Origin: Xylogone sp. PMI_703
Taxonomy: Eukaryota > Ascomycota > Leotiomycetes
Direction: 5' to 3'
Length of the DNA stretch: 64,000 bases
Assembly: GCA_021399445.1 (NCBI GenBank)
Contig: JAJTUQ010000003.1
Span: forward strand, 6,448,001 to 6,512,000
Shown here: one piece after another, positions 4,813 to 26,228 of the stretch
Numbering within the stretch: the first letter of the stretch is position 1
How the letters are laid out: the number at the start of each line of letters is the position of its first letter
The notes under the pieces: generated by a model
Told to the model about the DNA's origin: nothing
Seen by the model: the letters and a program-made list of their open reading frames with translations, nothing else
Database searches by the model: none
Translations under genes and position numbers: made by a program

Positions 4813-6999
4813 TTACCATAACAAAGTCTGGTGTCCCCGCTTCATCATAGCAGAAACCCAGTCGCAGTTACCTGAAAAGGTCTTCCTCATCTGCCAACAA
4901 TCCTCCATAATCATTATAGCTTCCGAAATGGGTCCAATATTAGTTTTTATGTCTGCAGCCAAAATGATATCTCTGAAGAGAGTATATTGCTCCTCAACCG
5001 CCAGACAGCCAGTGATAGCGAAGGCCCAGGCTGATTTCTGCAACAGTTTCGAATCCGTTAGGTTCTGGAAGGCAACGATTGTTTTCAAGACACTGCTTCT
5101 GATCTCTGGCAATTCAGGGTTGGCACCAGATAGAACAGCATGTAGATAGGTCGTTGCTGAGAGAGCGAATATCTTAGTTATCCCGGTTGAGGTGGATCCT
5201 ACTACCTTCCCTGGAAGTTCCCTTGCGGAGACAGTGCTCTCTATGATTGCTAGTTTCTCTTTTAACCGCTTTTCAATATGATTCCCGCGATTCACTAGCT
5301 CAACCATACTTAGTCTGCGTGCGTTTTCGGACTCTCTCTTCCAATTATCCAATTTGCTAATTTCTAAAATAACAACCATAACCCAATTCTCGTAGCCCAC
5401 GAGATCTGCGAGAGGAATACCCGCCGTCTCAAGCACAGACTTGTGATCTAGTTCAAGGAAAGGAGTAGATCGAATAGAAGCGCATGCGATGACATCTAAA
5501 GATATAAAGGAGCCGAGTAAAAACTTAACGGCAGTATCCGTTTCGACGCATGGAAGCGTAGTGGGCCTTTCTGTTAATGCATTGCTTTGTGAGGCTCCAC
5601 AATTTGGACTCAGCAAGGGTGTGTGCGACTGCACTAGTGTTGGAATTAAAGCTGCTGCTGCATTCAAATGCATTTTCCAGTTATCCTTGTTGGTACCCAA
5701 TAACTGAGAGGTTAGCTTAGTATCCTAAGGGATTGATATGTCGGAGTCATACCTCCCGGAATAGGAGTTGGAGGATGCACGAGAGAGCTTCTATACTCTG
5801 GGTCAGACTAGTAGCGCCACTCCAGTTGTGAGATTCCCCTATGCTAAGCTGCATCGCTTGAAGGGCCAGGTTATAGTATATTGCGTTGTCTCTTGGATGT
5901 GGAGTGGTAACGGCGCGATTGTTGCTTTGGAGTGTCAAGTATCGGTGGTGCTCACTCAATGCGAGAGTAGCATAATAGGCCGATTTAACGCATCTTAGTA
6001 GTGAGTAAAGCCAACCTCTTCCTTGGTTATTGAAGGCATGATAGTATGGGTACTGAATGAAAAAGACCTCATCTAAGTAGTGCATGAATAAAACGTCCTC
6101 CTCTTGACCGAATATGTTAGGTTCGCCACCAGGCGCTAAACCTGGAGAAATATGGCCGAATGTTTTAGCAGATGAGAGAGGATATGTTCGAGGTGTTGAC
6201 TTATAGAACTCTTGATAGCCGTGGATATCCTGGTTTGAGATATAGCCTTTATGGGAGGGTGAATTGGAGGTCAGTTCGAAGAAAGAAAGAAAAGCTTCTA
6301 AATTTTGACCAGCTTCTTGAGAGACGCCACCATCCCATCCAGTATCATTGATATGCGATGATAATGAATGGCCTCGCTGAAGCGATTCATATAGACCGGG
6401 GTTGAGATTAGAATTCGCGCCCTTGCCAGCTAAAGATATAGATGTGTCGATATCATGATTGAAGATAGAATCTGTTGGGAAAATGGTACTATCGAAAGCA
6501 GTTAAATTTGCCTCCGAAATTGGATATCTAGTGTCCTGCTGCTGTAACTCTATTGGTTCAATGGGTTTGTGTGGTGAGCTTGGTGATGCTGTGGTTAATA
6601 AGCAGGTTCCGTCGTCAGACGGTTGCTCAAGTTCTGTTTTTAGATCCTGGGATGATTGACTTTTGTGATGAACACGCCGCTTTCTTCTATTTGAGATGGT
6701 CTGACTGAGAATGCGCTTAACTTTGAAAGCTTGTTCTCTTTGTAGTACCCCTCTGTCCATCCATTCAGGTCGAGGCCCGTAGCCATGACACTCCAACTCA
6801 AGAGAAATACATGTAGTACACACGGGGCGAGTTTCGTCACATTTCTTTCTGCGCAGTCTACATGTCCAACAGCCGTGAAGACTTCGGATAGCTGTAGTAT
6901 AGTCAGGCCATTATCCCATTACTTAAATATTAATCAAGGCGGGGGCGGCGTTCATGAGAGGACAGCCTTACTATTTGCATATGAAATGGTTATGTCCAT
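4813..6999 (-). CDS. Zn2Cys6 transcription factor (full length)
   Basis: Three exons (6972-6999, 5753-6891, 4813-5703) give 685 residues. The first exon is only 28 nt. I chose it because the zinc cluster frame has a stop just upstream and no ATG, while a GTAAGG donor at 6971 and a CTACAG acceptor at 6892 join it in phase. The zinc cluster is complete and close to the N-terminus (GCWTCRLRRKKC, then PVCTTC and a last Cys). A low-complexity Ser/Gln/Pro-rich linker follows, then a long helical region with motifs such as HLNAAAALIPTLVQ, typical of Fungal_trans_2/DUF3468-type activators. The protein ends normally. It is the closest intact regulator to the left side of the RiPP cluster and a candidate pathway regulator, though 6 kb separates them. 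The first exon is the least certain part. Confidence 0.82.
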
Positions 7000-9900: not shown

Positions 9901-11269
9901 ACTCACGATAGATCTTCAGTGATCATCATGGCAGGCTAATGAGATACTGCGAGGGTTCCGATAAAGTTTATTCAACTTCGAGGAGTCTAAAGTACAAGAA
10001 GAGTAAACTACAGAAGAAAGAGAAGAAAGCTATACTCTGGTTCCTTGAGTACCTTATATAGGCATTCACCGCTCTTAGTGAGTATTATTACCATGGTGAT
10101 AATAAAGACGACTATGTCTGTTGGACCGAGCTCCAACAGACATAGTTGTGCGCTGCCTAAATCGAGAGGCTTAGACGTCGAGACTAGAATCGGGGTCAAC
10201 CCGTCACAGATACTTGGTATAAAGTATTTGTAGCCAGCCGGTCTGGCTGCATGCACGGCGCAGAGACCTTCTTTGAGGATAGCGGCCTCCAAAACTCACA
10301 CTCCAGCCCCGATTAGCTTCAACACTAGGGCCCATGGTTAATAGCATACAGAGCTTTGTGGAATGGCGAAATTATTTCCGTTTTCAGCGTTTATCTTTGG
10401 GCGTTTCTTGCCGCTATCAACAGTGATACGCTGCAAGCACAATCGCTATTTGGTGCCGGCGCTTTAGTAAAGTAAGCCCGGCCACTTGGCGCGTTTTCTT
10501 CCTCAAAAAGGGGGCAATCTGCATCACGGAGGTAGAACAGGGAGGAGATCACCTACCATGCTCAAGCATTACGTAGTAGGCTATGTACCTTACCGCTTTC
10601 AACTAATAACGCAGTGCTAGGCCCGTCGTATTTAGCTTTGGCGCGTGAACTTAGCATCTTATTAACTTGCAGTGGAGCCGGGCTTTATATTGCAGGATCC
10701 AGACTCCCGTCGCCTACTCTATCAACCACTCTTATGGTTTGTGGAGTCTAGGATATGGCTTCTCTGCATGTACGCTACACACAGCTTTAGTAGCTGCCCC
10801 ATTTATGCATCGGGTTATTTCCGAAGTTGTGCCCGACTTGCTCAACTGGGAGGGGTAACATGTAGCTTTCAGAACGTTTGAAGTTTAGGGAATGACATTA
10901 CTACGGCATGAAAACTATGCTTGATAGATGTGACAGTAAAATTTTCATCAAGACTCACGATTGAAATAGAGATGCTATCCGTGGCTTAACGGCTAGCCAT
11001 ACTGCCCTAACTATTGCTAAAGTTCCATCTCGTTTTTTACAGATGGGGCTGGCTTGGCAAATACTCTAAATGCACTCCGGAGAGACCTATTAGCTAGCTT
11101 TATCTCACGATTCACAACAAGGCCTCCAGCAATCAATGCATGGGAAATTATAAAATTTGAGAGGTTGCTAAACTCCTTAAACTTCAAGATGTCCTTGAAG
11201 CCGCTGTTCTCTTCTTGCTGAGCTTTATTGCTCTACAATAGCAAGAAGCTGAAGAAACTAGGACCGGAG
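7000..11269. other. Gene-poor region with hairpins and possible exon relics
   Basis: About 4.3 kb without a recognisable gene. Open frames are short and lack motifs. A branch-point-like CTAAC and a polypyrimidine/TTTTTTACAG acceptor at about 11010-11042 are followed by 59 open codons (to about 11220), which may be an exon relic of an unknown gene. A perfect 15-base inverted repeat lies at 10111-10146. The region is probably relic or non-coding DNA. Confidence 0.45.
10083..10149. repeat. Inverted repeat (stable hairpin) beside an imperfect palindrome
   Basis: ACTATGTCTGTTGGA at 10111-10125 is perfectly repeated in inverted form at 10132-10146, with a six-base spacer. Two or three further outer pairs are possible. 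Immediately to the left, 10083-10104 is a 22-base near-palindrome centred on CCATGG. Two adjacent dyads in gene-free DNA could be the folded end of a small transposable element or a structured transcript. No target-site duplication is obvious. Confidence 0.7.
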
Positions 11270-13246
11270 ATGGAGCATTTCGACCTTGATGAGGAGCAAT
11301 ATGAATTAGGCCCGTCCTGGTCATTTTCAAGAAGTCTGTTAACACAAAGCAACAGCCTGCCGTATTCATCTAACGAGGAGGGATGGCCAGGGACTCAATC
11401 AAAAGAGGAGTGTAGGATCAGGTTACCTTATTTGCCTAACAATAGGTACGGGAGGGTAAGTAAGAATAATGATACTACACAAATCTGGCACCCTCAAGTT
11501 GAAGGCATATACTCATTATGGATCCTAGTTTACAGGTGATATGGACTGCCGTTATGGGGTGGGGTTCGGTAAGTCCTTTAGTCCACATCCAAGTCCTCTT
11601 ACTCCAGAAGTAGGACTGAGTAGAATATGCTATGAAGCTATACTTGTCCTCCCTAGGACTACCACCTCATATAGTATCTTTCATCTGACTTGCAGGTCCA
11701 GTTTCGGGAATCGTGGTCCGCCGTATGTTAGCGTGCTAAGTGCTCGCTCTCAAAGCCCTTGGGGTCAGCGAAAGCCATATATCTTCTTTAGATCAATATT
11801 TACCATAATTTCAATGCTTCTTTTACCATGGAGCGGCGACTTTGTTGATTTTCTCTTTAATACCTTTGGAAATGATCCGACTACAAAGGTGGCGGTTGCA
11901 ACTAGAGGGCTTATTGCCGCAATATTTATATGGGCACTGAATATCGCGGTACGGCCGGTGCAGATAGGATTAGAGCTTTGATATGTGAATCTTGTCCGGC
12001 ACACCAACAAATCCAAGTAACTGCCTATACAATTGTTATAACAGGACTTGGAAGTATATTTGGGTATGCTTCTAGCTTTATAAATTTGCCTCAATTTCTC
12101 CTTGGAATACTCAGTTCAAATGCCTCTGCATGGTTGCTTCCTTGGCGCTTGGCCCCACGGTTGTCATTACTTTATCTATCATTAAAGAAAAGCAAGCTAT
12201 ACTATATGATAAAGCGAAAGGAAGACTGGAGTTATTGACATTTTTAGGCAAGTCTACGAGTCTGTAGTACACATGCCTAAATATATGAGAAGGGTTTGTA
12301 AAGTACAATTCTTTGCCTGGATGTCATAGTTCCCACTACTCTTCTTTATTACAATGTAAGTAACCTTGGCCGTAGACGGGACGTCATGGCAATTCCTATA
12401 TTGAGGCAATCACTGATTCATTCCACGTGATGCAGATATTATCTCCGATCTTTGTAAGTTCGATGTGACCGACACGTACACGTCTACAACATTGGCTAAC
12501 CTGTCTCAGATAAAGAATAGATTTCGGAAAAACCCCCCAGTGTGCTGCAGCTGAGATTCAATGATGATGCAAATGAATACGGCACTTTATCTATGGTATT
12601 ATTCACTACTGTAGCCTTTTTCAGCAATATTTTTCTTCCTTGTATTGTCGGTTCAGGGCCAAAAGTTGCTACACGCTCCATTCAGCTTCGTAAATTATTC
12701 ACATCAAGCTACAGTGAAGAAGAAAGAATAGAATACAATACGGTAGGGATTCTATATCGGAAGGACATTAAGAAACGATAGCTTTTCTCGAGATTGAATA
12801 GGTACCTCACGGGCCCATGGCTCACGCTTCCAGAAGCCTGGACAATATCTCATATTCTTACTGCTATGACGCTCACATTTATGTCTATAACGCGCTCACC
12901 AGCCGTTTCAACGTTTCTCGTTTCTGTTCTTGGAGTCACTTGGGTGTTAACCCAATGGGCACCATTGGCACTCATTAACCCATCCATTGCCGCACAAAAA
13001 TCCACAAAATATAATGATAACGGAGAGAAGAAGGAAGCAGATATACTACATGCCGGAGCAGTTGTAAGAATATACAACATAACTATCGCAGCACCACAGA
13101 TTGTGGCAGCTTTGGGAAGCAGTTGTATCTTTTGGCTATTACGATAGGTACTATTCAATGATGCCGAGATACTTGGGTGGGTTGTTAGTACTTGGGGGCT
13201 GGCGGCATTCATAGCAGCTTGGCTGGCCGCTGATATCGAGGCATAG
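11270..13246 (+). pseudogene. Sucrose-type (GPH/MFS) sugar transporter, decayed
   Basis: Translated pieces in all three forward frames line up as one transporter of the sucrose/alpha-glucoside permease family. These are an acidic N-terminus (MEHFDLDEEQYELGPSW), a WTAVMGWGS segment, the loop motif ARSQSPWGQRKPYIFF, a helix AALNI..RPVQIG-type segment, RALICESCPAHQQIQVTAYT, a long central part, LTLPEAWTISHIL, VLTQWAPLALINPSI and a final WVVSTWGLAAFIAAWLAADI. Lesions include frame changes near 11720, 11970, 12105 and 12225, a TAG in place of Trp at about 12330 (before FPLLFY), and an in-frame TAG at about 13146 before the last helix. With so many independent lesions this is a dead gene rather than a sequencing artefact. 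It sits directly beside the left edge of the RiPP cluster. Confidence 0.82.
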
Positions 13247-13340: not shown

Positions 13341-14012
13341 CTATCCTACAAGACATGGAACTATCTTAGGTACCATTCTATCGTTAATTTCATTCCACAC
13401 GCTTGTCATCTCCGTTGCATTCAGTTTTAAGAGCTCGATACAGTGGTTTATATGTCCAATTTCTAGCTCTCGAGTCGTCAACCCAACATTCGTGCCGCTA
13501 GTGAATCTTGCCATATTTTCAATGGTCATCATGCAGTGCCACCAGTGTTCGCCGAAGGTGGTCCATATGATGTGCTCTCCCAGGCGCACAAACTCGATGT
13601 CCACTTCTATCTTTCCATCATTATCCATATAATATCCCCAGTCTCTCGTACCTACAAACTTATCCTCCAGGTCTTGGTTATAGCAGGCCTCCGGAACCCA
13701 GGTGTATGACCAAAGTTGGAATTTACATCCATGATCCCTTGCATCCGCAGCGGTAAGCCCACAGTCAACCCACTGAGCAGATTGAGAGAGGAAACTATGA
13801 GATTCGGGCCGAGTCTGAGTTAATGCTATCAGCCCCCAGAATAGTGTGGCTATAGCAATGCCACAGAGTAGAGGTATCGCCTGGAACCAGTTTCTCTTGT
13901 TCAAGTGCGTAGGCAAGATGAGATCGTCTTTTGTATCGTGTGTAAGTGGAGTATTCTCCAGATCGCTCTGTACTTCATTATATTCCTCATCGCGTTTCTC
14001 TGAAGATGCCAT
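13341..14012 (-). CDS. UstYa-like oxidative cyclase (DUF3328), copy 1
   Basis: A single-exon protein of 223 residues. A cytosolic N-terminus is followed by one membrane helix at about residues 42-64 and a lumenal domain. The domain carries WVDCG and GCKF Cys-containing signatures and the two family-defining HxxHC motifs, HWWHC at 156-160 and HINHC at 187-191. In characterised dikaritin pathways (ustiloxin, asperipin-2a, phomopsin) UstYa/UstYb proteins carry out oxidative macrocyclisation or related modification of the core peptide in the secretory path. It is oriented the same way as the precursor at 15469-16014, about 1.5 kb away. An exact copy of the cluster promoter motif lies about 450 bases upstream (14458-14472). 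Nothing looks broken. The exact reaction cannot be assigned. Confidence 0.9.
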   Translation of the reverse strand: MASSEKRDEEYNEVQSDLENTPLTHDTKDDLILPTHLNKRNWFQAIPLLCGIAIATLFWGLIALTQTRPESHSFLSQSAQWVDCGLTAADARDHGCKFQLWSYTWVPEACYNQDLEDKFVGTRDWGYYMDNDGKIEVDIEFVRLGEHIIWTTFGEHWWHCMMTIENMARFTSGTNVGLTTRELEIGHINHCIELLKLNATEMTSVWNEINDRMVPKIVPCLVG

Positions 14013-14457
14013 CGCTGTGATTACCAGTAATTTGTTTGCCGTCCCAATATTTGAGCCAGATATGTAGGATCTGTCATCAGAGTATGGGCTCAGAAACTAA
14101 GAGAGCTAAGAGAACGCGAAACGCCCGTCTTCTTCCGACTTTTTGCTAAGCCGATATGGAGCTCTATAATTAATAGACTCCAGCCTAATCATCTGGCACA
14201 TAATTGAGCGAGCTAAATTCTTCTAGGGAGTAATTCCCACTCATGAACTTGGTGTCATCTCGATCTCAGTCCACAAAAGGCAATGTGCCGCCATCTTAGA
14301 ACCCAGAGGCACGTATCCGCCAAGGAAACCCGAGACTTTTCCCGATTTATCCTATGATAGATGAGCATTGTGGGTGGAGTGCTGTGTAATTCTGAAATGG
14401 CTAAACCTTACGCCAATTATGGTCGACTTGAACTGGCTTACTCTTGACTCTGTGCTT

Positions 14458-14472
14458 TCGGGTCGCCCTGCC
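14458..14472 (+). promoter_or_regulatory. Cluster motif, exact copy 1
   Basis: TCGGGTCGCCCTGCC, identical over 15 bases to copies at 17993 and 24685. It lies about 450 bases upstream of the UstYa-like gene at 13341-14012 (minus strand). Its GC richness stands out in A/T-rich surroundings. It is a candidate binding site for a pathway regulator. Confidence 0.65.
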
Positions 14473-14880
14473 TATCCTACTTTTATGAGCTCGCGATGAT
14501 TGCGGCATTTCGACCGACCACTGTTATCGCCCCAAATGAGGAACCGCAACTACCTCTAATGGATTGCCTTCTTCTGCTGGAGAAGAGATAGAGCCAATGT
14601 TATTGAGTCCTTCATATTAGGGAGTAGACTTGCAAAAGCCTTACTGGTGTGAGGACTGTAGTAGCAGGCTTCATTACAAGTCTCACGGTTCGTGAGTGCT
14701 GTTGGTCAATATCTTCATAGCCAAGTTTGCCATAGTATTTACCGTGTACTTTTATGATCTTGATAGAGTTATTATTCTTTATATATACTGCCAGAAGAGA
14801 TAGCGGAATTTCAAAGTGGCTACAGTTACAGGGAACCCCATTCCCAAAAAGGCTGCGCCCGCTTTCAAATCCCCGCAAAT

Positions 14881-14965
14881 ATCGCAAAAACTCACCCTTT
14901 TGATTATTTAGTTTGTATTTACTTCATAGTCATACTAGAGCTCCGAAAGAGTGAGTTTTTGCGAT
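14881..14965. repeat. Short inverted-repeat element (about 85 bases)
   Basis: ATCGCAAAAACTCAC at 14881-14895 recurs in inverted form (GTGAGTTTTTGCGAT) at 14951-14965. Similarity extends a few more bases inward with one mismatch. The spacer of about 55 bases is A/T-rich. The layout resembles a very small MITE-like remnant; no clear target duplication is visible. Confidence 0.65.
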
Positions 14966-15468
14966 CTTTACGTAGAATGTGAAAGGTTATTTTTGATCAC
15001 ACGTTGAATGGCCCTCTTCTCAAGCATAATGTAGATGGCTTCCAGTCAAATCTTTCTTCGCGGTGTGCCTATACCCTTCATCCCTTGAAATATTCAGGTT
15101 GGACAATCTGTTTATTCTCCCCACTTGATGCAAATGAACACCCCCTCACTTATTTATGACATACGTATCGATGTTGTTGCAAGTATATTATTATAGTACT
15201 TATTTGTTAGTACGACGAAACTGCTATATTCACCACATCCTAATAGGATATCAGTCGGCGTGGTTAAGTACAGGACATTTCACCATCAAGGAGCATCTCG
15301 CTTATAGTACTTAAGGGTAGTCGAAAATTCCATTAGCTATGTTTTAGACAATGGCTAGCAATGGATGCAACCCAGATCAAGCATGTCAGCTTAAGGACAT
15401 TCCACTCCGATCGACCGCCTTCCGTATCCATATGTCTTATCTTACTCCTACTACTCCCTCAGATCCAT

Positions 15469-16014
15469 CTATTGTCCAACAGTAATCTTGTATGGCTCAG
15501 GCTCTGCATTGCGTTGCCCAACAGTGATTTTATACGGCGCGGGCTCTGCTTCTCTTTGGCCGACGGTGATCTTGTACGGTTCAGGCTCAGCCTCTCTCTG
15601 GCCAACAGTGATCTTGTATGGTTCAGGTGCTGCCTCTCGTTGACCAACAGTAATCTTATAAGGCTCTGGCTCCGCCTCTCGTTGGCCAACGGTGATTTTG
15701 TATGGCTCAGGTTCTGCCTCTCTCTGGCCAACAGTGATCTTGTATGGTTCAGGTGCTGCCTCTCGTTGACCAACAGTAATCTTATAAGGCTCTGGCTCCG
15801 CCTCTCGTTGGCCAACGGTGATTTTGTATGGCTCAGGTTCTGCCTCTCTCTGACCAACGGTAATCTTGTATGGTTCTGGCTGAGCTTCTCTTTGGCCTAC
15901 AGTGATCTTATAAGGTTCTGGCTCTGCCTCCCGTTGGCCAACAGTGATTTTGTATGGAAGAGCAGATGCAATAGCCAGAACGCTGGCAGCGGTAGCAATC
16001 CTGGAGAAATGCAT
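15469..16014 (-). CDS. Repeat-containing RiPP (dikaritin-type) precursor, 12 x YKITVGQ
   Basis: A single-exon protein of 181 residues. Residues 1-18 form a signal peptide ending in ASA. The rest is LPYKITVGQ followed by eleven 14-residue units of the form R-EAEPEP-YKITVGQ. The heptapeptide YKITVGQ is invariant in all 12 copies, although its codons vary at third positions, so selection appears to hold the peptide constant. Six spacers are EAEPEP; the others are EAQPEP, EAAPEP (twice), EAEPAP and NAEPEP. Every variant keeps Ala or Pro at the second position of each dipeptide, as needed for trimming by a Ste13-like X-Ala/X-Pro dipeptidyl peptidase. Cleavage after the single Arg plus trimming would release YKITVGQ (with or without Arg). 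Tyr-x-Ile at the core start matches the ustiloxin (YAIG/YVIG) and phomopsin (YVIP) cores, where Tyr is linked by an ether bond to the Ile. Four UstYa-like genes and a tyrosinase surround it. The mature product is not known to me. Confidence 0.92.
   Translation of the reverse strand: MHFSRIATAASVLAIASALPYKITVGQREAEPEPYKITVGQREAQPEPYKITVGQREAEPEPYKITVGQREAEPEPYKITVGQREAAPEPYKITVGQREAEPEPYKITVGQREAEPEPYKITVGQREAAPEPYKITVGQREAEPEPYKITVGQREAEPAPYKITVGQRNAEPEPYKITVGQ
15472..15960 (-). repeat. 42-bp tandem repeat inside the precursor gene
   Basis: Eleven full 42-bp units plus a partial first unit encode the core/spacer array. Units differ mainly at synonymous positions. A block of three units (126 bp), starting near 15595, recurs almost without change 126 bp further on (from about 15721). 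This indicates a recent duplication by unequal exchange or slippage and shows how copy number is changing. Confidence 0.85.
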
Positions 16015-17171
16015 TTTGGTAGTGAATAGTTATTGAAAGGATCTTGAGATTGAATAGATTCGAATATGATTCTCAGAAGGCAGCTAATTGTGGCTGAATG
16101 TCGACGCCATTAATGTAGAATATATAGAGGGCAGGCTTGATATTTCTTTGAGTGATCTCTGAGCACCAACAACATTGGAAGCATAGAGCAATTCTGGCCA
16201 GTTCTGACGAGCCGCTCTATAGAACTCGAGGCTCTCTTGAGTACGGAAAGACGACACGAAATTTGGGCTAGTCTTGTTAGTAGAACACATACTACTCGAA
16301 AAGGAGAGCATCATGGTTCTTGCCGTAAAAGAATATCTCATAATAAGAAGCTGAATTGGTAAGACGACACGAAGTATATGACGACACTTTCACAGTTTAT
16401 GATAGTTCCATGCATGGGTAGTGCAGCTGTAAGCCGCCGTGTATTGACTGTGCAATCGTGGATGGTTAGCTCTGGCGCCGCACAAGGGGGTTAAGTTATA
16501 GACATGGGTACCGACACCAGAATGCTGTTACAGAGACCATGGAAAAACGACAGACTGAGGAAAGAGAGCCAGAACCGTACACTACAGCTAGTAAGGTGGG
16601 CTAGTTGATGACTTTTACCACCTTCCTTTTCAATGCATGAATACATATTATCTATTCTATAGTCAAGAATAAGCAAAGATACATAGCTATCATAAATCCT
16701 CACTCTAATGTCACCACCATAGATTGAGCAAATGAGATAGTTCTTATTTACGCCGCAATGAGCTGTATTTCATACCGTGCTACTGCTTAGCACGGAATAT
16801 ATGGTTTCCTAAGAAGCTGAGGTTGCAATATAAAGGCTCTAACTTGTGAAAATGTTAGAATATGAGAACTACACCTGATAGAAAGAGCTTGCTACTCAAG
16901 CTACAATGTCTGATATTTCGTGTTGCATAAATTTTTATGCTTAGTTCACGTTGAGATAATTGTAATAAGAACTAAGTGGTGATAGCCAAGGATATCTCCC
17001 ATAACGTGATTATTGTTACATATACATGATAAGTCATCGTTATTCTATTCGGCATAAAGACTCAGAAATCTCCTCCAGGCTCATTAGAGGATATTCAAAC
17101 CAAGCATCTCTAAGCCTTGATCACGACCGCCCTCAGAAACCAGCAAGCTGCCTTGATAATCGTAAAGAAAC
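16015..17171. other. Precursor upstream region
   Basis: About 1.15 kb between the precursor start and the 3' end of the second UstYa-like gene. No gene is recognised; an 85-codon minus frame (16084-16341) has no motif. I see no convincing copy of the GC-rich cluster motif, so the precursor promoter may use other sites. Confidence 0.5.
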
Positions 17172-17834
17172 TTATTCCAGGTATGGACCACAGGTCAGAA
17201 AATCGACCTCGCCTCGATTCATTGGATAGGGTGGATTCGGGTTTGCCTTTTCTAAGATACCAGAGCAATGGACCGTATGATCGTAGCTCATGGATTCATT
17301 CGAGATCAACTGTATTTCTCCTCTGGCCTGAGCCTCCAGGGCTAAAGCCTGTAACCTCCAGACGTAATAACAGTGTGCGCGGTGGTGAAGATCATTCGTG
17401 AACATATGAGTATGTTCTCCTTTCCTAATAATTTCCAGCGGAATTTCTCGAGTGCCTTCAATATCGTAGAAAAATTTGAACTGTCCTTCCGTGATGTATT
17501 GTTCTGACAGTTCTTCATGATAGCAGTCTCTTCTGACCCAACCGGTCATCATAACATCAAAAATGCATCCACGTTCCTTAGCTTCTAAAGCAGAGCTTCC
17601 ACAATCTCTCCAGACACCAGTCTGTCCAGCAATTGATTTGTGAGTGGCGTGATCACTTATTGTAAATGCTAGATTTAGAATTCCAACGATGAGAATCAAC
17701 GCGATAGAGACAGAGAGGCCGACCTGCATCATTGATGAGCGACGAGCTCTTGCTGGCGTGTCTTTCTGTGAGGTTATAGTGTCTTCGCTATCACGAAGGA
17801 GCCTCTCGCTATCCGGATAGAATTTGTCGTCCAT
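17172..17834 (-). CDS. UstYa-like oxidative cyclase (DUF3328), copy 2
   Basis: A single-exon protein of 220 residues. A basic segment (ARARR, about 28-32) precedes a membrane helix at about 37-59. The lumenal part has WRDCG and RGCIFD (a C...GC signature also found in copies 1 and 4), then HRAHC at 151-155 and HTVHC at 186-190, the two HxxHC motifs of the family. The three short intronless copies (13341-14012, 17172-17834, 22270-22956) form one subgroup by this WxDCG...GCxF signature. The gene is divergent from the tyrosinase at 18358, and the pair share a 523-base promoter with one exact cluster motif, so they are probably co-expressed. Expected role: oxidative modification or cyclisation of the YKITVGQ core. 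Confidence 0.9.
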   Translation of the reverse strand: MDDKFYPDSERLLRDSEDTITSQKDTPARARRSSMMQVGLSVSIALILIVGILNLAFTISDHATHKSIAGQTGVWRDCGSSALEAKERGCIFDVMMTGWVRRDCYHEELSEQYITEGQFKFFYDIEGTREIPLEIIRKGEHTHMFTNDLHHRAHCYYVWRLQALALEAQARGEIQLISNESMSYDHTVHCSGILEKANPNPPYPMNRGEVDFLTCGPYLE

Positions 17835-18357
17835 GTTAAGAATAATTTTACGGACAACTTGGTCTCGTGTTGAGAATCGAAAGTTCGTTATACTGGACTA
17901 TTATGTCATTTCTACCGAATACTAGACTTCACATCACATATCCGTTTTACTTCTGGTTTCGAACCCGGGAGGAAGGTGGTGTAATCCTTGTATCGGGTCG
18001 CCCTGCCCTCTGGTGCTGCAGACGGAAAGCGAAGCGAGTTGCTGACTGGGAGAGCTAAGCGCCATGAATGGTCAAATGTTGTAAGGGACAGTTCCCATTC
18101 ATACTTTTGCCTACAAGGCGACGCGAATCTGGGAAGTTATTCGTGTCAAGGACATGATGAGGAGCATGCAGTTTAATAGTGGTAGAAACCACTTATGTGG
18201 ATGCTGGAAGCGTGTGACATTCTTACAGACCAAGCCTGAGTTGTAGGAAGCCCCCCGTTTCTATGGGGCAGATATTCCAGGCAAATCCGCAATTTGTATA
18301 TCCCAACGTGCAACCTATAGTGTCTATCAAACTTCAGCATATGGTACCGTTATCAAG
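17835..18357. other. Bidirectional promoter of UstYa-like copy 2 and tyrosinase
   Basis: A 523-base divergent promoter with a single 18-base copy of the cluster motif at 17993-18010. No further gene is seen. Confidence 0.6.
17993..18010 (+). promoter_or_regulatory. Cluster motif, exact copy 2
   Basis: TCGGGTCGCCCTGCCCTC, identical over all 18 bases to the copy at 24685-24702. It lies 158 bases upstream of UstYa-like copy 2 and about 350 bases upstream of the tyrosinase, so one site could serve both genes. Confidence 0.7.
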
Positions 18358-19619
18358 ATGCTACCATTCTCCCTCTATCCTGAAAAATACACTCGGTTGC
18401 CCAGAACATCTGATTTAGAGGGAACAGACTGTGATATCGAGATAGCTAAAGAAATCACACAGAGAAAAGCTTCAAGAAGGTGGCATTTCATAAAGATATG
18501 TCTTCTACTCCTTGCTTGCGTCGTTGGATCAACTTTCTTCTTTGAGATTGGACGCCTATACCCTGACGATGGCACCGTATCAACGGGGTCATCGTCATGC
18601 CGCAACCCCAAACGTCGTCATGAATGGAGAACTCTTAGTACGAAGCAACAATATGAATATCTAAACGCCCTTAAGTGCCTCCAAAGCGTTCCCTCAAAGT
18701 TACATCCTGGAATGACTCTTTATGATGATTTTCCATTCTTGCATGATGTAGTTGGAGATTATGGTCAGTGCTCTAGTATTCACGATTTTAACTAACACTA
18801 AATGCCAAACGCAGCCCATGAAACGGCTGCTTTCCTCACCTGGCACAGGTATTTTATTCATCTATTTGAGAGGGAACTCAAGGATAAATGTGGCTACACT
18901 GGTGGTTTAACGTAAGTTGCTGTGCTCTTAACCTATTAATGCTAAAATTCTGCTGCAGCTATTGGGACTGGACTCTTGACTGGGAAGATCTATCAAGATC
19001 GCCTATTTTCAAATCTTCTCCTGGGTTTGGTGGCAACAGTAATCCGAATAGTGAGCCTAGCAAAGTTGCTATAGTTGGGGGGGACCGCTGCCTCCAAGAT
19101 GGCCCATTTGCTGGTACTACAGTTCATTGGTGGACTCAGGAGGGCCAGTCTCACTGCCTCTCTCGCGGATTCCAAGATGTAGTACCGATAGAAGAAATGG
19201 GTAAATCTTTCAGGCCTGGACGGATAGAAAAAATTCTCCAACAACCAGACTATGAGTCATTCTTCCTTAATATGGAGCATACTATTCATAATGGAATTCA
19301 AGTTGCTATCGGGGGTGACATTATGTATAACACAGCCCCTTATGGTCAGTGAGAACAACTTCATCTGTTAATGAGCTTAATATTTGACTATTTCACAGAT
19401 CCAATATTCTATCTCCATCATACTCAACTTGATCGAATATGGTGGTTATGGCAACAAATTCATCCGTCTCACCAGTGGCAGTACCTTGGCCTTGCTAATA
19501 ACCACTCTGATGACCGAGCATCGCTTTATAATATTATTGATATGGGTGATTTTGCTCCTGGACTTGCTGCGTTGGATTTGATGGATACTAAGTCTGATCT
19601 ACTCTGTTACCGTTATTAG
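18358..19619 (+). CDS. UstQ-like tyrosinase, membrane anchored, with altered CuB ligand
   Basis: Four exons (introns 18764-18814, 18912-18958, 19345-19398) give 369 residues. An N-terminal cytosolic part precedes a helix at about 44-63, then a lumenal tyrosinase domain. CuA ligands are visible as FLHD, AHE and TWHRYF; YWDWT follows. The CuB region reads HNGIQVAIGGD, where tyrosinases normally have HNxxHxxIGGD, so the second CuB His is Gln (CAA). The third CuB His is in FYLHH. Tyrosinase homologues accompany UstYa proteins in the ustiloxin cluster and act on the Tyr side chain or assist cyclisation. Loss of one copper ligand may weaken or change activity, or the other nearby His (MEHTIHN) may substitute. 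The membrane anchor suggests it works in the same compartment as the UstYa proteins. Confidence 0.85.
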
Positions 19620-20345
19620 AAACACACCGACAGTCCCAGTTGAATAAGGACCCCCAAGGTACCTAATAGTTCTATATAGCTTATGCTAGGATTGTGTAAA
19701 TATAGTTTGAGGCCACTCCGAAGGGAGGTGAAAAGCTTCTAGATATGTGGAAGGGATACTCGAACCTGATCCCAGTTGCCAAAGCTATCAAAGACTAATT
19801 ACAATTCAAGTAGTGGAGGACATGATTAAACTTGTATGGTACAGAGCTTATCTCTTGGGATGCCGAAAATTGCTAGATCTTTCTAACTGAACAAAATAAT
19901 CTTCAAAATTAAATGGTTATTATCCTAAAAACACAGCCATTAGTGATTATTAGGAAAAGAAACCTTAAGAGCTTCCGATATAGACAGCCTGCTCAAACAG
20001 TAGCCCTCTATGTAATACATCAAACACTTCGCCATTAGATTTCTTAGAAACTAGATGATAATATTAGCTAATGGATAATTGGATCTCTGGATTGCCTGTA
20101 GTTAACAAAAAATGCAGCGCCAATCTAAATATAACCGAACATGGGGATAGAGGGCAAGGCGTCGCGAAGCTGGGCACCAAGCTCACAAAGTCACATGAGA
20201 TATTATACAATACAGTACAATAGGTTACCTCAGTTGGGGAGCTACGCTGTTTTTCTATGTATGTAACCTTAAGCAGAGGCTCTCCTCTAGAAACACCATC
20301 GTCTTTCCAATACCAGTGTTTGCTATGGCATTCCAGTTCTTGGAA
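19620..20345. other. Intergenic region upstream of UstYa-like copy 3
   Basis: About 0.73 kb, A/T-rich, with no gene seen. It contains a degenerate reverse-orientation copy of the cluster motif at 20150-20167. Confidence 0.5.
20150..20167 (-). promoter_or_regulatory. Cluster motif, weaker copy
   Basis: On the minus strand this reads TCGCGACGCCTTGCCCTC, matching 15 of 18 bases of the consensus. It lies about 180 bases upstream of UstYa-like copy 3. Confidence 0.45.
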
Positions 20346-21381
20346 ATGGCTAGCAACGACGACCAGCAGAGGGAAAAGCTGTTAAATTCCATTGACAGCG
20401 AAAGTGAATATGACGATGCACCAAATATACAGAAGGAGGTTGGTATTTCACGAAGACGAAAGATTCGCCGACTATTGCCTTGGGCACTACATACCATAAT
20501 TCTACTCTCTTACGGAACTTTTATGTTGATCAAAAGCCGACATGTATCAAAACCAAGATCGTGGCCTAGTACTTTCTACCTTTACTTAGCCATAGAGACA
20601 CAAATTGACTTGGTCTAGGTATTTACGACGGACTTGAGCTTCCTGAACATGTCTATAAAACTACCTTCCATTCAAATTACGAAGGTCGACCGACAGCCGA
20701 GGTTGATAGGGCATGGCACGAGATGCTAAATGGTATAGTAACCCAACCAGTGTGATATATACAATGATTTCTAACATAGCTTGAAAAGTTGGCATAGTTA
20801 GCATTACGGAAAGAGAAAGAGACCGATTGCCCTATGAAACTGCGGCCAATATATATCGAAACAACGAGTATGTTGTAGAAATGAATGTTTTCCATCAGCT
20901 TCACTGTCTGGTATTACAAATTCCGTCCGTCTGGTTAATTATGGCCGTTCGCTGATTTCCTCAATAGCATGGCCTTCGCGAACAACTCTGGAATCCTCGT
21001 TCTATTTCCTGGAGAAATAATGAGCCGGTCGGCTGGTGGGAATTCCATATGAGTAAGTATTGCCAAACCTCTTCATATTTAATCCTTGAACTGACAGGAT
21101 TAACAAATACAGATCATTGTATTGAGCATTTGAGACAGACACTGATATGCCATGCCGATATTACACCACAGCGCTTTCGCTGGTCTGAAGAGGATTATGC
21201 TTATTCGTTAGATCAGGAACAGCAATTTATGTGTCGGGACTGGGATCAAATATGGAACTGGGCAAAAAGTCGGAACACAACGGGAGATTATCCTATGAAT
21301 TTGAAGGGGTTGGAGAAGAATGGGAAGCAATCAGACGCTGGGGAGTCTTGGCTGAAGGACAACGCTGGATCGAGAAACTAG
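20346..21381 (+). CDS. UstYa-like oxidative cyclase (DUF3328), copy 3, intron-rich type
   Basis: Five exons (introns 20569-20618, 20733-20788, 20911-20967, 21053-21112) give 270 residues from the ATG at 20346. An in-frame ATG lies 30 bases further upstream. A basic stretch (SRRRKIRR) precedes a membrane helix at about residues 44-62. The lumenal domain has the classical UstYa pattern: YDGLELP, RAWHEML, NVFHQLHCL (HQLHC) and FHMNHCIEHLRQTLICHADITP (HMNHC). This differs from the three short intronless copies, which lack HQLHCL and the LRQ segment, so two UstYa subfamilies are present. In known pathways two different UstY proteins act together (UstYa and UstYb). It lies downstream of the tyrosinase in the same direction. 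Confidence 0.88.
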
Positions 21382-22131
21382 AATTTTGGGCCGCACTAGA
21401 AGGAATTGGTTTATTATGCATTAACTAGTAGAACTATTATCCCGAAATCTGTACTTTACGAAAAAAGAGTCAACAATGCTACTCATCTTAGCAATCATAT
21501 ATGTTACGGTTATTACTCAATAATAGAGAGCTCATAGAAGCTGACGAGATAACCATACTTGCATGGATGAGGAGAAACCATGCTCAAATGCGCTACAATT
21601 ATGATATTAATATGGATTATGCAACGGGGCATTCAGAGTGCAGATATTGGCAAAGGATAGATCATCTCTAGATTTGATGGCCAGTGTTAGCCTATGCGGC
21701 TGCAAGTAGCTACGGCATGATGTAGCTACAAGAGTGCTCCTACTTATACCCGTGCCGCCTTGCCATGGCGCGTCTTTCCGTGCGAGACGTATCCCTCGCG
21801 TCGAGCTGCCCACCTTACAACAGAGTCAGCAGTAGATTCACAAACTAGAGAGAGAGGCTATTACCCAAACAACTGTTACATCCCCATGTATTCACAGCGA
21901 ATAGCATTTGTACCTGGTCTAATTGGCTTTGTATCATCGGCTCCCCCAGCGCCGTCATGGGTTTCCCCTTCGTTCCTCTCTTATACTGGGCAGCATTGAA
22001 GCCTCTCTTGATAGTAACTACAACACTCTCTCAGTCGCTATTGCGCGTGTTAATTTAGTTCTCATAAGCACTGTCAGATATTATAGACGTCCAAACACAA
22101 GTCTTGTATCCTTTTATTTGCCCAGAGAGAA
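21382..22131. other. Intergenic region upstream of UstYa-like copy 4
   Basis: About 0.75 kb with no gene seen. It includes a weaker copy of the cluster motif at 21796-21811. Confidence 0.5.
21796..21811 (+). promoter_or_regulatory. Cluster motif, weaker copy
   Basis: TCGCGTCGAGCTGCCC matches 13 of 16 bases of the exact motif. It lies about 340-475 bases upstream of UstYa-like copy 4, depending on the start used. Confidence 0.4.
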
Positions 22132-22269
22132 ATGGTTCAATATAAGGAAACGATTGAAAGACTATCAGAGTCAGCCAGGGCCCTAAGAGGGGCTCTCTTT
22201 TCACAATGGTTCATACCAGTCTATCGAGAGCTTTCTAACGACGCAATAGAGGAGCAAGGCAAGAGTCTA

Positions 22270-22956
22270 ATGCCAGAAAAACTCGAGGAGGGCCGAGGAC
22301 ACCAGGTTATTGGCTTAGCTTCAGTAGACTCTCAGCAATCTCGCAAGCCAACTAGACGAGTGTATTATGGAATAGCTGTTGGTCTTCTTATTCTTCTAAT
22401 TCCATTCCTCATAGCTCGCAATGAACATCGACCCAAAATATGGAAAGACTGCGGCGGTGATCCTGAAATAGCCCGTTCGCGTGGTTGCCATTTTGATCTC
22501 ATTGCGTTTGCATGGCAGACACACGAATGCTTCGATGCGCCGCTGGTGGCTGAGTTCGCCGAGTTCGAAGACTGGACATTCTGGGCATCTGAATATGGCA
22601 ATGAAACCGTGCCCAAGGAAGTGGCGTTTCTTGGTGAACGGACTTTGTACATTACTTGGCGATACCATATCGTGCACTGTACGTTTGTGTGGAGACAATT
22701 ACATAGGGCATATGAAGCGGGCTGGATCGATAGTGACTTGAGGCGCTACGGCCATACCAAACACTGCCAACAGATGTTCTTGATGGAAGGGCAGGAATTT
22801 CAGAATGGGAGATTCTATGCTCTTCCCAACGATACTGTTACAACTCTAGCTAACATTATATATCCTTCCTGCGAAAAGTTAGGATTGGCTTCACCAAAGA
22901 GCAGTTGGTGGGATGGTGTACCGCCTAGATTAATAGAAGATTGGAAGAAATACTAG
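22270..22956 (+). CDS. UstYa-like oxidative cyclase (DUF3328), copy 4
   Basis: A single-exon gene. The frame is open from an ATG at 22132 (274 residues). I prefer the ATG at 22270 (MPEKLEEG, 228 residues) because it places the membrane helix at about residues 32-50, matching copies 1 and 2. The domain has WKDCGG and RGCHFD followed by HIVHC and HTKHC, the two HxxHC motifs, and ends with a Trp-rich tail (SSWWDG). It belongs with copies 1 and 2 in the short subgroup. It probably acts on the same peptide core in the secretory pathway; which bond each copy makes cannot be told from sequence. Confidence 0.88.
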   Translation: MPEKLEEGRGHQVIGLASVDSQQSRKPTRRVYYGIAVGLLILLIPFLIARNEHRPKIWKDCGGDPEIARSRGCHFDLIAFAWQTHECFDAPLVAEFAEFEDWTFWASEYGNETVPKEVAFLGERTLYITWRYHIVHCTFVWRQLHRAYEAGWIDSDLRRYGHTKHCQQMFLMEGQEFQNGRFYALPNDTVTTLANIIYPSCEKLGLASPKSSWWDGVPPRLIEDWKKY

Positions 22957-23329
22957 AAAGATTTGCAACCACTGTTAATACCGTGTTATACTATTACCTG
23001 ATTTAAGAAATATTGATTTTTACCGTACAATCACAGGCTAGCTAGAAGTTTCCTTGTATATGTAGTCCTGCGCATCTACCTCTTAAGTGCTGTATAATAT
23101 ATTGGTTAACAGCCCAACAGTTATCATTAAATACTATAATTAAAACAAGTAGATGGTGTTAGCAGTGCCTCCCCTCTTCAAGCTTGTTCATTCGATCCGC
23201 AGGTTAGCAGCTGATGCGGCCGATCAAGCGGGGTTGTACGAGATTAGTTGATTATATGTTGCTGTGATTTCTCCAAATTCTCGTCGGAAAGATCCCATAA
23301 GGTTCATCTTCTCATTCATCTAGAAGGAC
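22957..23329. other. Short intergenic region
   Basis: Promoter region of the reductase at 23330. No gene and no clear copy of the cluster motif was found. Confidence 0.5.
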
Positions 23330-24301
23330 ATGACGGTTCCACTAAGAGTAGCTGTTGTGACGGGCGCGAATAAAGGGATTGGGTTTGCTATAGGTACACT
23401 ACCATCTTGAATACACTTGCAAACTAACTCTCACCGTTCAATATAGTCCGTAATCTAGCGCTCCAATACCCTTCCTCTATTCTCCATGCCGGACAGTTCC
23501 TTATATACTTAACGGCACGGTCAGAAGAGCGTGGTATTGAAGCAGTTAATGCACTAAACAGTGATCCCCAACTCAGAACAGCGAGAGTGCTTACTCAAGA
23601 TGGAGGTGAAACAACCATCAAATTCCAGAAACTGGATATCTGCGACCCAGATAGTGTTTATGCCTTCAGAGATCTCTTAGTAAAAGAGCACACCGAAGGA
23701 ATTGATGTTGTAATTAACAACGCGGGAATTTGCTTAGATGAGTTTAGTACGTCAAGTCTATTCCACATCGGAATACCGACTTTTTACTGACGATTTGAGG
23801 ACAGCTGCTGATGCAGTTCAGCAATCGCTTCGGACAAACTATTACGGCACTGTACGAATGAGTGAATGTCTTCTTCCTCTAACTCGCTCGGGTGGACGAC
23901 TGGTAAATGTAGCTTCCGCGTCCGGCCAGCTGAATAGGCTACCTGCACATCTCAAAGAAGCGTTCATCTCCTCAAAGAGCGTTGAAGCATGTACATCATT
24001 GGCAGTGCAGTTCGTTGTAGATGTAAAAGCGGGAAAAGTGGAGGAATGGGAAGATGCTACCTATAACTTTAGTAAAGCTGCGGAAATTGCTGCTACGAAG
24101 GCGATGGCTTTGGATGTTGAGAGGAGTGGGAAAAATATCTTGATAAATGCTTGCTGCCCGGGAGGAGTGAAGACGGATATGAACCCAGCTGGTGGAAAGA
24201 CTCCCGATGAAGGTGCCAAAACGCCGGTGCTTCTTGCTTTGGGGGAGTTTGGTGGGACGACGGGTGGATTCTGGAGGAGTGAAAAGATAATTGAATGGTA
24301 A
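23330..24301 (+). CDS. Short-chain dehydrogenase/reductase, carbonyl-reductase type
   Basis: Three exons (introns 23394-23446, 23747-23804) give 286 residues. The nucleotide-binding loop TGANKGIG lies near the N-terminus, NNAG at about residue 103, the catalytic Ser in VASASG, and the YNFSK (YxxxK) pair. The layout, including the insert between Ser and Tyr, resembles human CBR1-like NADPH carbonyl reductases. The C-terminal PGGVKTDM and GGTTGGFW are also typical. It follows UstYa-like copy 4 in the same direction and precedes the DOMON-b561 gene. It could reduce a carbonyl on the modified peptide (for example after oxidative deamination of the N-terminus), but this is inference. A housekeeping role is possible, as its promoter lacks the motif. 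Confidence 0.85.
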
Positions 24302-24941
24302 AACCAAAGGAGGTTATCTCTCCTTGACAACCACAGTTTTCTAAGCGTAAAATTTCATGACCGACTCTTGCCCTATTAACTCTAGAATTTCTAGATGAAA
24401 TGAATTTAACAATATGCATCATGATGAAGTAGTCGGAGTTTACAAAGGTAGTTCAGCATTATTCAGTATGTTGCTTTCAGATCGAAATTACCATTATAAC
24501 TGCATTCATTATACGCATCCCAATAGAAAAATTCCGAGTCTCTTCCCCAGCTAATTATATTACTCATGCACAAAGAGTAAAGTATCTTAGTGGAAAGTAG
24601 TTATGCCCAAATCATGCATAGTTTTGCATAGTTCACATGTGACAACATACTTGCTGTTTTAGGAAAGCCATCGCCTTGTCACCCTCGGGTCGCCCTGCCC
24701 TCACAGGCTGGGCCAGCGCCATTGCACATTCTGCCGCTTATGCTTAAAATGAAAGGTTACGGCGACTCACTAGTTAACGGGCACATCTTGCATAAGCCCC
24801 AGTATGTCAGCTGAATCAAGGCCCTCTCCGCGCCATTATGTTTGTCGAAATGTATAGCTCGCGGATTCTTGCCATATTACAATAAGTAATATGGTATTGC
24901 GTTGAGAGAATTATTCACTTTCCTCCGTCAATATTTTCAAT
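24302..24941. other. Promoter region of the DOMON-b561 gene
   Basis: About 0.64 kb with no coding signal. It contains an exact 18-base cluster motif at 24685-24702, the only other notable element. Confidence 0.55.
24685..24702 (+). promoter_or_regulatory. Cluster motif, exact copy 3
   Basis: TCGGGTCGCCCTGCCCTC, identical over 18 bases to 17993-18010. It lies about 240 bases upstream of the DOMON-b561 gene and links that gene to the UstYa/tyrosinase genes. Confidence 0.7.
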
Positions 24942-26228
24942 ATGCCATGGTCCCTGTTTCTAGGTCTCATTGCCTATTATCTCACATTGGTACATTTTGT
25001 TTCTACTGAGTCGACGCAGTACTGTGAGTCGGGTCTAAGTCGAAATCAGAATGAAGACATCCAATTCTGCGTTGGACTGAATATCTACGAAAATGTCTCC
25101 TCACACTCACATGACTTTTTCCTTACGATCAACTATGTACACCAGAAAGGCGACCAGAAGGGATGGCTCTCAGTTGGCCTTGGGGAAGTAATGCAAGGAG
25201 CACTTATGTTTGTGATATATGGAGATCCACTAGACTCGAAGCCTCCATTTCTTAGTATCCGCAGTACTCGCGGTCATCACGATCCTGTTCCGATTACAGA
25301 CGTTGAAACAAATGGAGTTGAGATTCGGCTTCTTCGCTCAGAGTGGCTTTCGCGGTCTGATACGGATGTAGCAATCATCGAACTTGTTTGCTTCTCGTGT
25401 GAGCTGTGGCCTGGAACACCCGTATCAGCATCTACAACTGCACAGTCATGGATATGGGCATGGAATAGCCAGCAGGAGTTCCCCGAGTTTTCATACGATG
25501 CTCCACTAGAAGGGCATGCTCATCTTCCTACACCTGGCGGTTGGGGTAGCTTCTATATTGATATGGCTCAGTCATTTGGGCCAATGTCCGCGCCTGGTAT
25601 CAGACCGGGCGTCACCGCATACGGTGCCTATGCTGCGAGTCCAAAAGTATCATCAAAACAGGGAATACTTCTTATACATGGATTATGTATGAGTTTTGTG
25701 TTCCTCCTTATTCTCCCAGCCGGGGTTATAGCTCTGCGCTCAGGAATTGTACGGGCTTTCAAGTACCATTGGCTCATTCAGGTTGCAGCATCTAGTGTTA
25801 TTATTGTTGGCGTCATTGCGGGCTTCTTGCTCAAATCAGAAATTGACAGCACACATCAAACGATAGGGCTCATTACTGGGATTTCCCTTCTCATACAAAG
25901 CATTCTAGGATGGCGACATCATGTGGTCTTCTTAAGAATAAGACATCGAACTTGGCTATCTCACTCACATATCTGGCTCGGCCGGCTCATTATGATAGCA
26001 GGCTGGGCTAATTTAGTGACTGGGTTGTCTCTTCATGGGTATAAAGCAAGTACATATAATATCATAGGATTAGTTGTCGTCGGAGAAGCATCTAGTTTGT
26101 TCTACTGGATCTTGCGGCAGCAGAGGAAATCTGAGGGCAAGATCAGTGGACACGAGGCTGAAATGCCTATGACTGAGGCGTCCGAGCCAAATTATTTTGC
26201 CATAGATAGCGACGACGAAGACGTATGA
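24942..26228 (+). CDS. Secreted DOMON + cytochrome b561 transmembrane oxidoreductase
   Basis: A single-exon protein of 428 residues. A signal peptide (about 1-22) is followed by a DOMON domain like the cytochrome domain of cellobiose dehydrogenase (about 25-215), containing WLSVGLGEVMQGA and VIYGDP. A cytochrome b561-type unit with about five to six helices follows (about 240-390). Candidate haem-ligand His residues lie in LIHGLCM, YHWLIQ, STHQTIG and SHIWLGR. The tail is acidic. Such proteins move electrons across membranes between haem centres. The shared promoter motif suggests it belongs to the RiPP regulon, perhaps supplying or draining electrons for the copper- or UstY-dependent oxidations. 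That role is inference and I know of no characterised precedent. Confidence 0.85.
   Translation: MPWSLFLGLIAYYLTLVHFVSTESTQYCESGLSRNQNEDIQFCVGLNIYENVSSHSHDFFLTINYVHQKGDQKGWLSVGLGEVMQGALMFVIYGDPLDSKPPFLSIRSTRGHHDPVPITDVETNGVEIRLLRSEWLSRSDTDVAIIELVCFSCELWPGTPVSASTTAQSWIWAWNSQQEFPEFSYDAPLEGHAHLPTPGGWGSFYIDMAQSFGPMSAPGIRPGVTAYGAYAASPKVSSKQGILLIHGLCMSFVFLLILPAGVIALRSGIVRAFKYHWLIQVAASSVIIVGVIAGFLLKSEIDSTHQTIGLITGISLLIQSILGWRHHVVFLRIRHRTWLSHSHIWLGRLIMIAGWANLVTGLSLHGYKASTYNIIGLVVVGEASSLFYWILRQQRKSEGKISGHEAEMPMTEASEPNYFAIDSDDEDV

Follow-up and report, generated by a model that had tools for sequence, protein, structure and literature searches.

A candidate dikaritin-type precursor with twelve YKITVGQ cores and single-Arg, Ste13-type spacers in a UstY/tyrosinase cluster of Xylogone sp. 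PMI_703

The class-defining enzyme of the dikaritins is the DUF3328/UstY protein, and the five-gene definition given by Ding et al. includes a precursor, a tyrosinase, a methyltransferase and a transporter or peptidase (PMC12048977). In ustiloxin, UstQ, UstYa and UstYb jointly yield the cyclic intermediate from a precursor with 16 YAIG cores flanked by ED and KR; the proteases trimming these flanks were called unknown in the same 2019 review (PMC6514808). Umemura described YXIX as the core common to the ustiloxin, phomopsin and POI2 type, with the variants YAIG, YVIG, YVIP, YTIG and YFIG (PMC7329392). Repeat precursors of another kind, those of the alpha-pheromones, carry the Ste13 signature. 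Le Marquer et al. (2019) describe this signature as one that, within Ascomycota, generally belongs to alpha-pheromones alone; in their account, epichloecyclin precursors and those of the toxic cyclic tetrapeptides lack it (PMC6339444). Umemura's survey covered 227 yeast alpha-factors and 216 fungal pheromone genes, and a DUF3328 neighbor was absent for 100% of the former and 98.6% of the latter; such neighbors were present for 17 of 76 basidiomycete pheromone-like KEPs, for one Rutstroemia pheromone homologue (close) and for two Aspergillus pheromone genes (longer range) (PMC7329392). Whether mating-pheromone genes gave rise to dikaritin precursors is a question asked in a 2022 review (PMC9233826).

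The precursor gene analyzed here lies in a 64,000-nucleotide stretch of the genome of Xylogone sp. PMI_703, a member of the Leotiomycetes (the window). It is similar to that of ustiloxin (Aspergillus flavus, Ustilaginoidea virens) in its signal peptide, its many identical Tyr-x-Ile cores and its tyrosinase and UstY proteins. With phomopsin (Phomopsis leptostromiformis) it shares the Tyr-x-Ile start (YVIP in phomopsin), a PhomQ-type tyrosinase, several UstY-type proteins and a unit length of 14 residues, compared to 13 in ustiloxin. However, UstA has ED and KR flanks and the phomopsin cores are also KR-flanked, whereas the window precursor has no KR but a single Arg with XA/XP dipeptides, and its core is YKITVGQ. 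All 12/12 cores begin with YKI and thereby show the Tyr-x-Ile of the ustiloxin/phomopsin subtype. Compared with the five-gene definition, the locus contains a leader precursor with repeated cores and a tyrosinase; no methyltransferase and no peptidase was recognized among the about 40 frames scanned of the window's 148 open frames of ≥80 aa. This holds for the methyltransferase, flavin monooxygenase and PLP enzyme of ustiloxin and for the S41 peptidase and methyltransferase of phomopsin.

The alpha-pheromone precursors (S. cerevisiae MF-alpha, N. crassa Ccg-4) are alike in having a signal peptide, identical repeats and Ste13-type spacers, but they have KR ahead of the dipeptides and other cores. 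In the window precursor, XA/XP precedes each copy, and a single Arg is present instead of KR, RR or KK before the dipeptides. Finally, the epichloecyclin precursor GigA (Epichloe) is a repeat protein as well, with cores containing Tyr, Ile and Lys and a proposed Tyr-Ile cross-link. It differs by its N-terminal Ile, internal Tyr and KR sites, and a Ste13 signature is not reported for it.

The precursor gene, its array and its spacers

An earlier note, made from the letters of the window, had proposed an open reading frame with 12 exact YKITVGQ copies in 14-residue units behind a signal peptide, and had remarked that the codons vary while the peptide is constant. We found the frame to be real and to lie on the minus strand, which the note had not given: the ATG is at 16014 and the stop codon ends at 15469 (Table 1). 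The repeat count confirmed 12 exact copies at a constant spacing of 14 residues. Furthermore, the N terminus is signal-like and thus in line with a putative signal peptide, since residues 6 to 18 are hydrophobic (mean Kyte-Doolittle value of 1.96) and Ala-Ser-Ala (residues 16 to 18) stands ahead of L19-P20-Y21. When the window was translated in all six frames and the three leading words of each were listed, the array's own words were the commonest heptapeptides, with 12 copies; the leader of the next frame, PTVILYG (9 copies), is the array read antisense. Tandem Repeats Finder (TRF) described the array as 42 bp × 11.6 copies (77% matches) and as a 126-bp period × 3.8 copies (89% matches).

In the core codons, 7/7 third positions were variable, but 0/14 first and second positions. 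The cores occur in nine distinct DNA versions, which require at least 10 changes, synonymous without exception (P of about 1e-6, if 25% of random changes are taken as synonymous and the minimum number of changes is counted). The minimum was used because units 3 to 5 and 6 to 8 represent a recent block duplication, corresponding to the 126-bp period. Judged by these codons, the array is the result of selection acting on the peptide, with strong amino-acid constraint, rather than a simple young repeat.

A genome-wide search for DNA encoding YxIT[VI]GQ detected 17 places, compared to 4 for a reversed-pattern control. Twelve of them are the array itself, two belong to one paralogous locus (see below) and three are singletons; the YAITVGQ singleton on contig C25 has nonrepetitive surroundings and was taken as chance. 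When the precursor was searched against 5.8 billion proteins, 7,995 candidates were scored and 0 reached an E value of ≤0.01, the precursor itself included, a search in which filters against repetitive sequence could also conceal matches. Because no database protein matched, not even the precursor itself, the protein is probably unannotated, and the gene is apparently without annotation. The suspicion that the core is new has held so far: YKITVGQ was mentioned in 0 of 5.39 million open-access papers. A Pfam HGTP_anticodon match on the precursor (E value of 2.6e-7, no passing stretch) was rejected as a repeat artifact, and antisense frames across the array were rejected as mirror frames. Downstream of the precursor, we observed an imperfect inverted repeat at 14862 to 14985 (71% over about 124 bp), in a stretch which also resembles the flank of the paralogue.

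The 11 spacers read REAEPEP (six times), REAAPEP (twice), and REAQPEP, REAEPAP and RNAEPEP (once each). Arg opens 11/11 spacers, directly after Gln, with both CGN and AGR codons being used. Each of the 33 dipeptides in the spacers ends in Ala or Pro (XA or XP); replacements (four independent ones, by our own reading) affect X alone. LP, another XP dipeptide, precedes copy 1 after the putative signal peptidase site, and the last core runs straight into the stop codon. The precursor frame contains none of the dibasic pairs KR, RR, KK and RK. Ordinary kexin processing, as the earlier note had assumed, does not fit this arrangement of a single Arg and Ste13-type dipeptides. By its sequence, the spacer of one Arg and three XA/XP dipeptides is the Ste13 signature of alpha-pheromones.

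We propose that signal peptidase would cleave after Ala18 and that a kexin-type protease would cut after the single Arg behind each Gln. A Kex1-like carboxypeptidase would then take off that Arg, and a Ste13/DPAP-type dipeptidyl peptidase would strip the leading dipeptides, namely LP in copy 1 and three XA/XP in each of copies 2 to 12, so that twelve identical YKITVGQ peptides would result. The ends at Tyr1 and Gln7 are suggested by the dipeptide phase, which stops exactly at Tyr, by the last copy, which stops at Gln, and by LP before copy 1. Kexin P-domain and DPPIV searches gave one match each in the genome, indicating that the general processing machinery is present. Gln-Arg does not belong to the classical kexin sites, which counts against the proposed cut. 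We nevertheless infer cutting at Gln-Arg, helped by reports from Pichia, where Kex2-type cleavage after single Arg was inferred for other repeat precursors (PMC9769878). According to the KEP rule of Umemura 2020 (at least three repeats of at least 8 aa between KR, KK, RK or RR; PMC7329392), a precursor with 0 dibasic pairs is no KEP, although it may work like one. Mining by this rule would miss the gene, a blind spot in which no protein record was found for the precursor either.

Table 1. Features of the precursor locus in the window
Feature	Position	Strand	Basis
UstY-A; single exon, one TM, two HxxHC, type-2 family	13341..14012	-	PF11807 E 0.062, below cut-off
TCGGGTCGCCCTG, upstream of UstY-A	14458..14470	+	exact
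Precursor gene; 181 aa, single open exon, 12 x YKITVGQ	15469..16014	-	ORF + repeat count
Array; 12 cores + 11 spacers R(XA/XP)(XA/XP)(XA/XP)	15472..15954	-	repeat table, genome pattern search
Putative signal peptide, residues 1-18, MHFSRIATAASVLAIASA; LP next, then first core	15961..16014	-	inspection + hydropathy
CCTGCCCTCT, 112 bp upstream of precursor ATG	16126..16135	-	weak, 10 bp
UstY-B; single exon, one TM, two HxxHC, type-2 family	17172..17834	-	no PF11807 match up to E 10
TCGGGTCGCCCTG, divergent promoter UstY-B/tyrosinase	17993..18005	+	exact
TCGGGTCGCCCTG variant, 2 mismatches, UstY-B/tyrosinase promoter	18114..18126	-	mismatch search
Tyrosinase, UstQ/PhomQ type	18358..19619	+	exons 18358-18763, 18815-18911, 18959-19344, 19399-19619
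UstY-C, canonical UstYa/DUF3328	20325..21381	+	PF11807 E 1.5e-29
UstY-D; single exon, one TM, two HxxHC, type-2 family	22132..22956	+	no PF11807 match up to E 10
Short-chain dehydrogenase/reductase (SDR)	23330..24301	+	PF00106 E 7.7e-28
TCGGGTCGCCCTG, upstream of CDH-cytochrome gene	24685..24697	+	exact
CDH-type cytochrome domain protein, C-terminal half hydrophobic	24942..26228	+	DUF2427 sub-threshold

The cluster and the type-2 family

The cluster spans about 13 kb (13341 to 26228). UstY-A, the precursor and UstY-B are encoded on the minus strand and the remaining five genes on the plus strand, in the order tyrosinase, UstY-C, UstY-D, SDR and CDH-cytochrome-domain protein. The dikaritin-type reading of the earlier note stood in that UstY-type genes and a UstQ/PhomQ-type tyrosinase adjoin the precursor; its part on ordinary kexin processing was not supported. 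Our spliced tyrosinase model is identical to a database protein of Xylogone sp. PMI_703. Among 120 of 255 matches listed, its nearest relative is from Stipitochalara longipes (70% identity over 79%), while ustQ-named matches showed 45% over 77% and 38% over 95%, and phomQ1' showed 37% identity over 88%. Seven histidines are invariant across five aligned tyrosinases, and the expected copper-binding residues are presumably among them. In the genome, 4 of 9 tyrosinase genes are located within 5 kb of PF11807 clusters, which span about 1.3% of it.

The class-defining enzyme is a DUF3328/UstY protein with two HxxHC motifs, and four proteins beside the precursor come into question for it. UstY-C (exons 20325-20568, 20619-20732, 20798-20910 and 20968-21381 in our own model) qualifies by its Pfam match, and UstY-A, UstY-B and UstY-D have both motifs and stay below the Pfam cut-off. 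UstY-C had no match among solved structures. The canonical repertoire of this genome is large, with 108 PF11807 exon matches at about 82 loci, which we grouped into 49 clusters.

UstY-A, UstY-B and UstY-D represent a second double-HxxHC family (type-2). The 18 members that we aligned comprise these three proteins, twelve encoded at other loci of the genome and three relatives found in databases. Both motifs were present in 17/18; PF11807 matched 3/18 (best E value of 6.4e-5), and NCBIfam gave no convincing match for any of the 18. In a comparison of the type-2 profile with six canonical UstYa frames, hhalign returned an E value of 0.0012 but a probability of just 19.7; the link to UstYa is remote, and kinship is at most plausible. 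The union of two whole-genome searches comprised 39 type-2 genes, 0 of them overlapping PF11807 matches and 30 lying within 10 kb of one. With the window excluded, this was true for 27/36 genes and for 16/22 gene groups; the group-level count is the fairer one, since gene-level probabilities treat genes as independent. Neither Pfam nor NCBIfam names the family, for which another name may already be in use. Relatives of UstY-B were found in metagenomes and in Oculimacula yallundae. The predicted structure of UstY-B (mean pLDDT of 66.7, medium quality) gave no solved-fold match at an E value of ≤0.001, and a solved-structure search with two alignments gave chance-level matches only.

From eight-mers common to the upstream regions of the cluster we traced the 13-bp element TCGGGTCGCCCTG, in a search that was post hoc. 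It occurs 4 times in the 50-Mb genome, 3 of them within the 12.9-kb cluster (P of about 7e-11, a post hoc figure), compared to 0 for the control. Outside the array, TCGGGTCGCCCTG alone among elements of ≥13 bp was found three times in the window. In addition to the two-mismatch variant listed in Table 1, a second such site is located at 34811, outside the cluster. Upstream of the precursor we detected CCTGCCCTCT, which is common to the 3' half of TCGGGTCGCCCTG at 17993; no longer piece was present there, and CCTGCCCTCT was not found in the paralogue. The upstream regions of eight cluster genes were also compared for zinc-cluster dyads (CGG..CCG types), and no dyad was common to three or more of them.

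Paralogue, other precursors and competing readings

At C1:5444205, the genome harbors a paralogue with an intact 62-residue frame, the flanking DNA of which is 73 to 81% alike to the window locus. The paralogue contains, in this order, YKITIGQ, R-EAKPEP, YVITGGF, a KR-containing stretch and YAITVGQ, which ends at the stop codon. Its cores YKIT, YVIT and YAIT differ at position 2 and retain Tyr, Ile and Thr. No UstY or tyrosinase match was found within about 8 kb on either side, so the Y-x-I-T constraint at this locus is not attributable to these enzymes; the paralogue is possibly an orphan or else a relic. The kept Tyr-x-Ile-Thr supports the reading of the window gene as a putative dikaritin-type precursor. 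The Tyr-x-Ile start, to which the earlier note had drawn attention, proved to be well founded: it resembles YAIG, YVIG and YVIP (PMC7329392), and Y, I and T are retained in the paralogue.

We also surveyed the flanks of 9 of the 49 PF11807 clusters, one of the nine in part. Repeat frames were detected in 5/9, with KR between the units throughout (L013, L019, which is weak, L026, L030 and L038). In 2/5 of these precursors, XA/XP follows KR. Both, L030 (about 5.0 kb, minus strand) and L038 (about 0.5 to 0.9 kb, minus strand), are UstY-adjacent; QYRNADW and QFRNTDF are the cores in L030 and L038, and both precursors stop without a trailing basic site. These KR-Ste13 spacers and the described pheromone genes with DUF3328 neighbors count against a claim of total novelty. 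By its sequence, the window gene brings a core and a spacer design that are both new to a pathway of a known kind: in the open-access literature, a single Arg with a Ste13 spacer and a Tyr-x-Ile core in a tyrosinase/UstY cluster was not found described. As side observations, the repeat units of L013 and L026, both in UstY clusters, are DFAEPLLGE.. and QTTGDKSPKYEDYEV, with KR separating the units, and the L026 cluster contains two tyrosinase genes. At L028, a frame with GAESRYD repeats was rejected as a precursor, having no basic spacer pattern.

Taken together, we favor, with reasonable though not high confidence, the reading that the gene encodes the precursor of a dikaritin-type heptapeptide modified by UstY proteins and tyrosinase and most likely closed by a Tyr1-Ile3 ring. 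Under this reading, the tyrosinase and the UstY proteins would oxidatively link the peptide after trimming, most likely between the Tyr1 O and the Ile3 C-beta, the positions joined in ustiloxin and phomopsin. Besides the Gln-Arg site, several points speak against it: the remote link of the type-2 proteins to UstYa, the lack of a recognized methyltransferase or peptidase among the frames scanned, the missing homologue of the precursor, the paralogue without UstY or tyrosinase nearby, and a promoter element that was found post hoc and of which a 10-bp piece lies upstream of the precursor. A new cyclic peptide that matures along an unusual route is the probable product.

A more far-reaching form of this reading, which we put forward tentatively and hold to be rather doubtful, is that the gene represents a living intermediate between pheromones and cyclic toxins, the peptide being modified by UstY proteins and tyrosinase, still cut by the alpha-factor machinery (kexin at a single Arg, Kex1 and Ste13) and released as twelve Tyr1-Ile3 cyclized YKITVGQ. 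If so, Ste13 would be the hitherto unknown protease freeing the N terminus of such cores, and a second double-HxxHC oxidase family would work beside UstYa in many clusters. With its Tyr-x-Ile core, tyrosinase/UstY genes and clean Ste13 spacer, the locus makes the questions of the trimming protease and of the pheromone origin testable in one gene.

It is rather unlikely that the peptide is modified by the UstY proteins and tyrosinase and still lacks the Tyr1-Ile3 ether. In that case, for example, Tyr could be linked differently, Lys or Thr could be modified, the peptide could be hydroxylated or dehydrogenated and nothing more, or the product could be trimmed to a shorter ring. UstY chemistry is indeed varied: asperipin rings connect Tyr side chains to beta-carbons, cyclochlorotine is hydroxylated and chlorinated, and epichloecyclins join Tyr cyclization with Lys methylation. 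Moreover, the ustiloxin ring requires just two such proteins, and the cluster encodes four UstY-like ones. However, ustiloxin and phomopsin likewise combine an N-terminal Tyr-x-Ile with a tyrosinase of the UstQ/PhomQ type, and Tyr and Ile are retained in 3/3 paralogue cores.

An unmodified linear signaling peptide, processed like alpha-factor while the UstY cluster acts on something else, is less probable still. The canonical alpha-pheromone pattern is WC..GQ.C. Searching the genome with two canonical patterns gave 0 matches for one and a single chance-like match in an unrelated frame for the other, and the lack of a convincing canonical pheromone gene is compatible with the linear peptide taking this role. 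So is the spacer, as the Ste13 signature marks possible peptide hormones, generally alpha-pheromones in Ascomycota (PMC6339444). However, the core, which begins with Tyr-x-Ile, lacks both Trp and Cys, and the precursor is flanked by two UstY genes, while in Umemura's survey pheromone genes almost never have a DUF3328 neighbor (PMC7329392). Furthermore, L030 and L038 carry Ste13-type spacers beside UstY genes, and thus the signature is not confined away from UstY in this genome.

Very improbable, finally, is a silent or decaying gene or a structural repeat protein never cut into peptides: the missing relative among 5.8 billion proteins and the single Arg in place of a dibasic site would fit, but the frame is open, the cores show no replacement changes though all third positions vary, Arg is preserved through C/A switches at the first codon position, and the XA/XP spacers are in perfect phase.

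Adjacent to the cluster, sugar-transporter-like pieces without a clear Pfam match are spread over several frames of the plus strand (11222 to 13246) and are possibly a decayed transporter gene. Farther off in the window lie a P450 (1275 to 3087) and a zinc-cluster regulator (4813 to 6972), which we do not count among the cluster genes. We also observed a small protein (151 aa; 38234 to 38689, plus strand) that looks secreted, contains several Cys and has no Pfam match.
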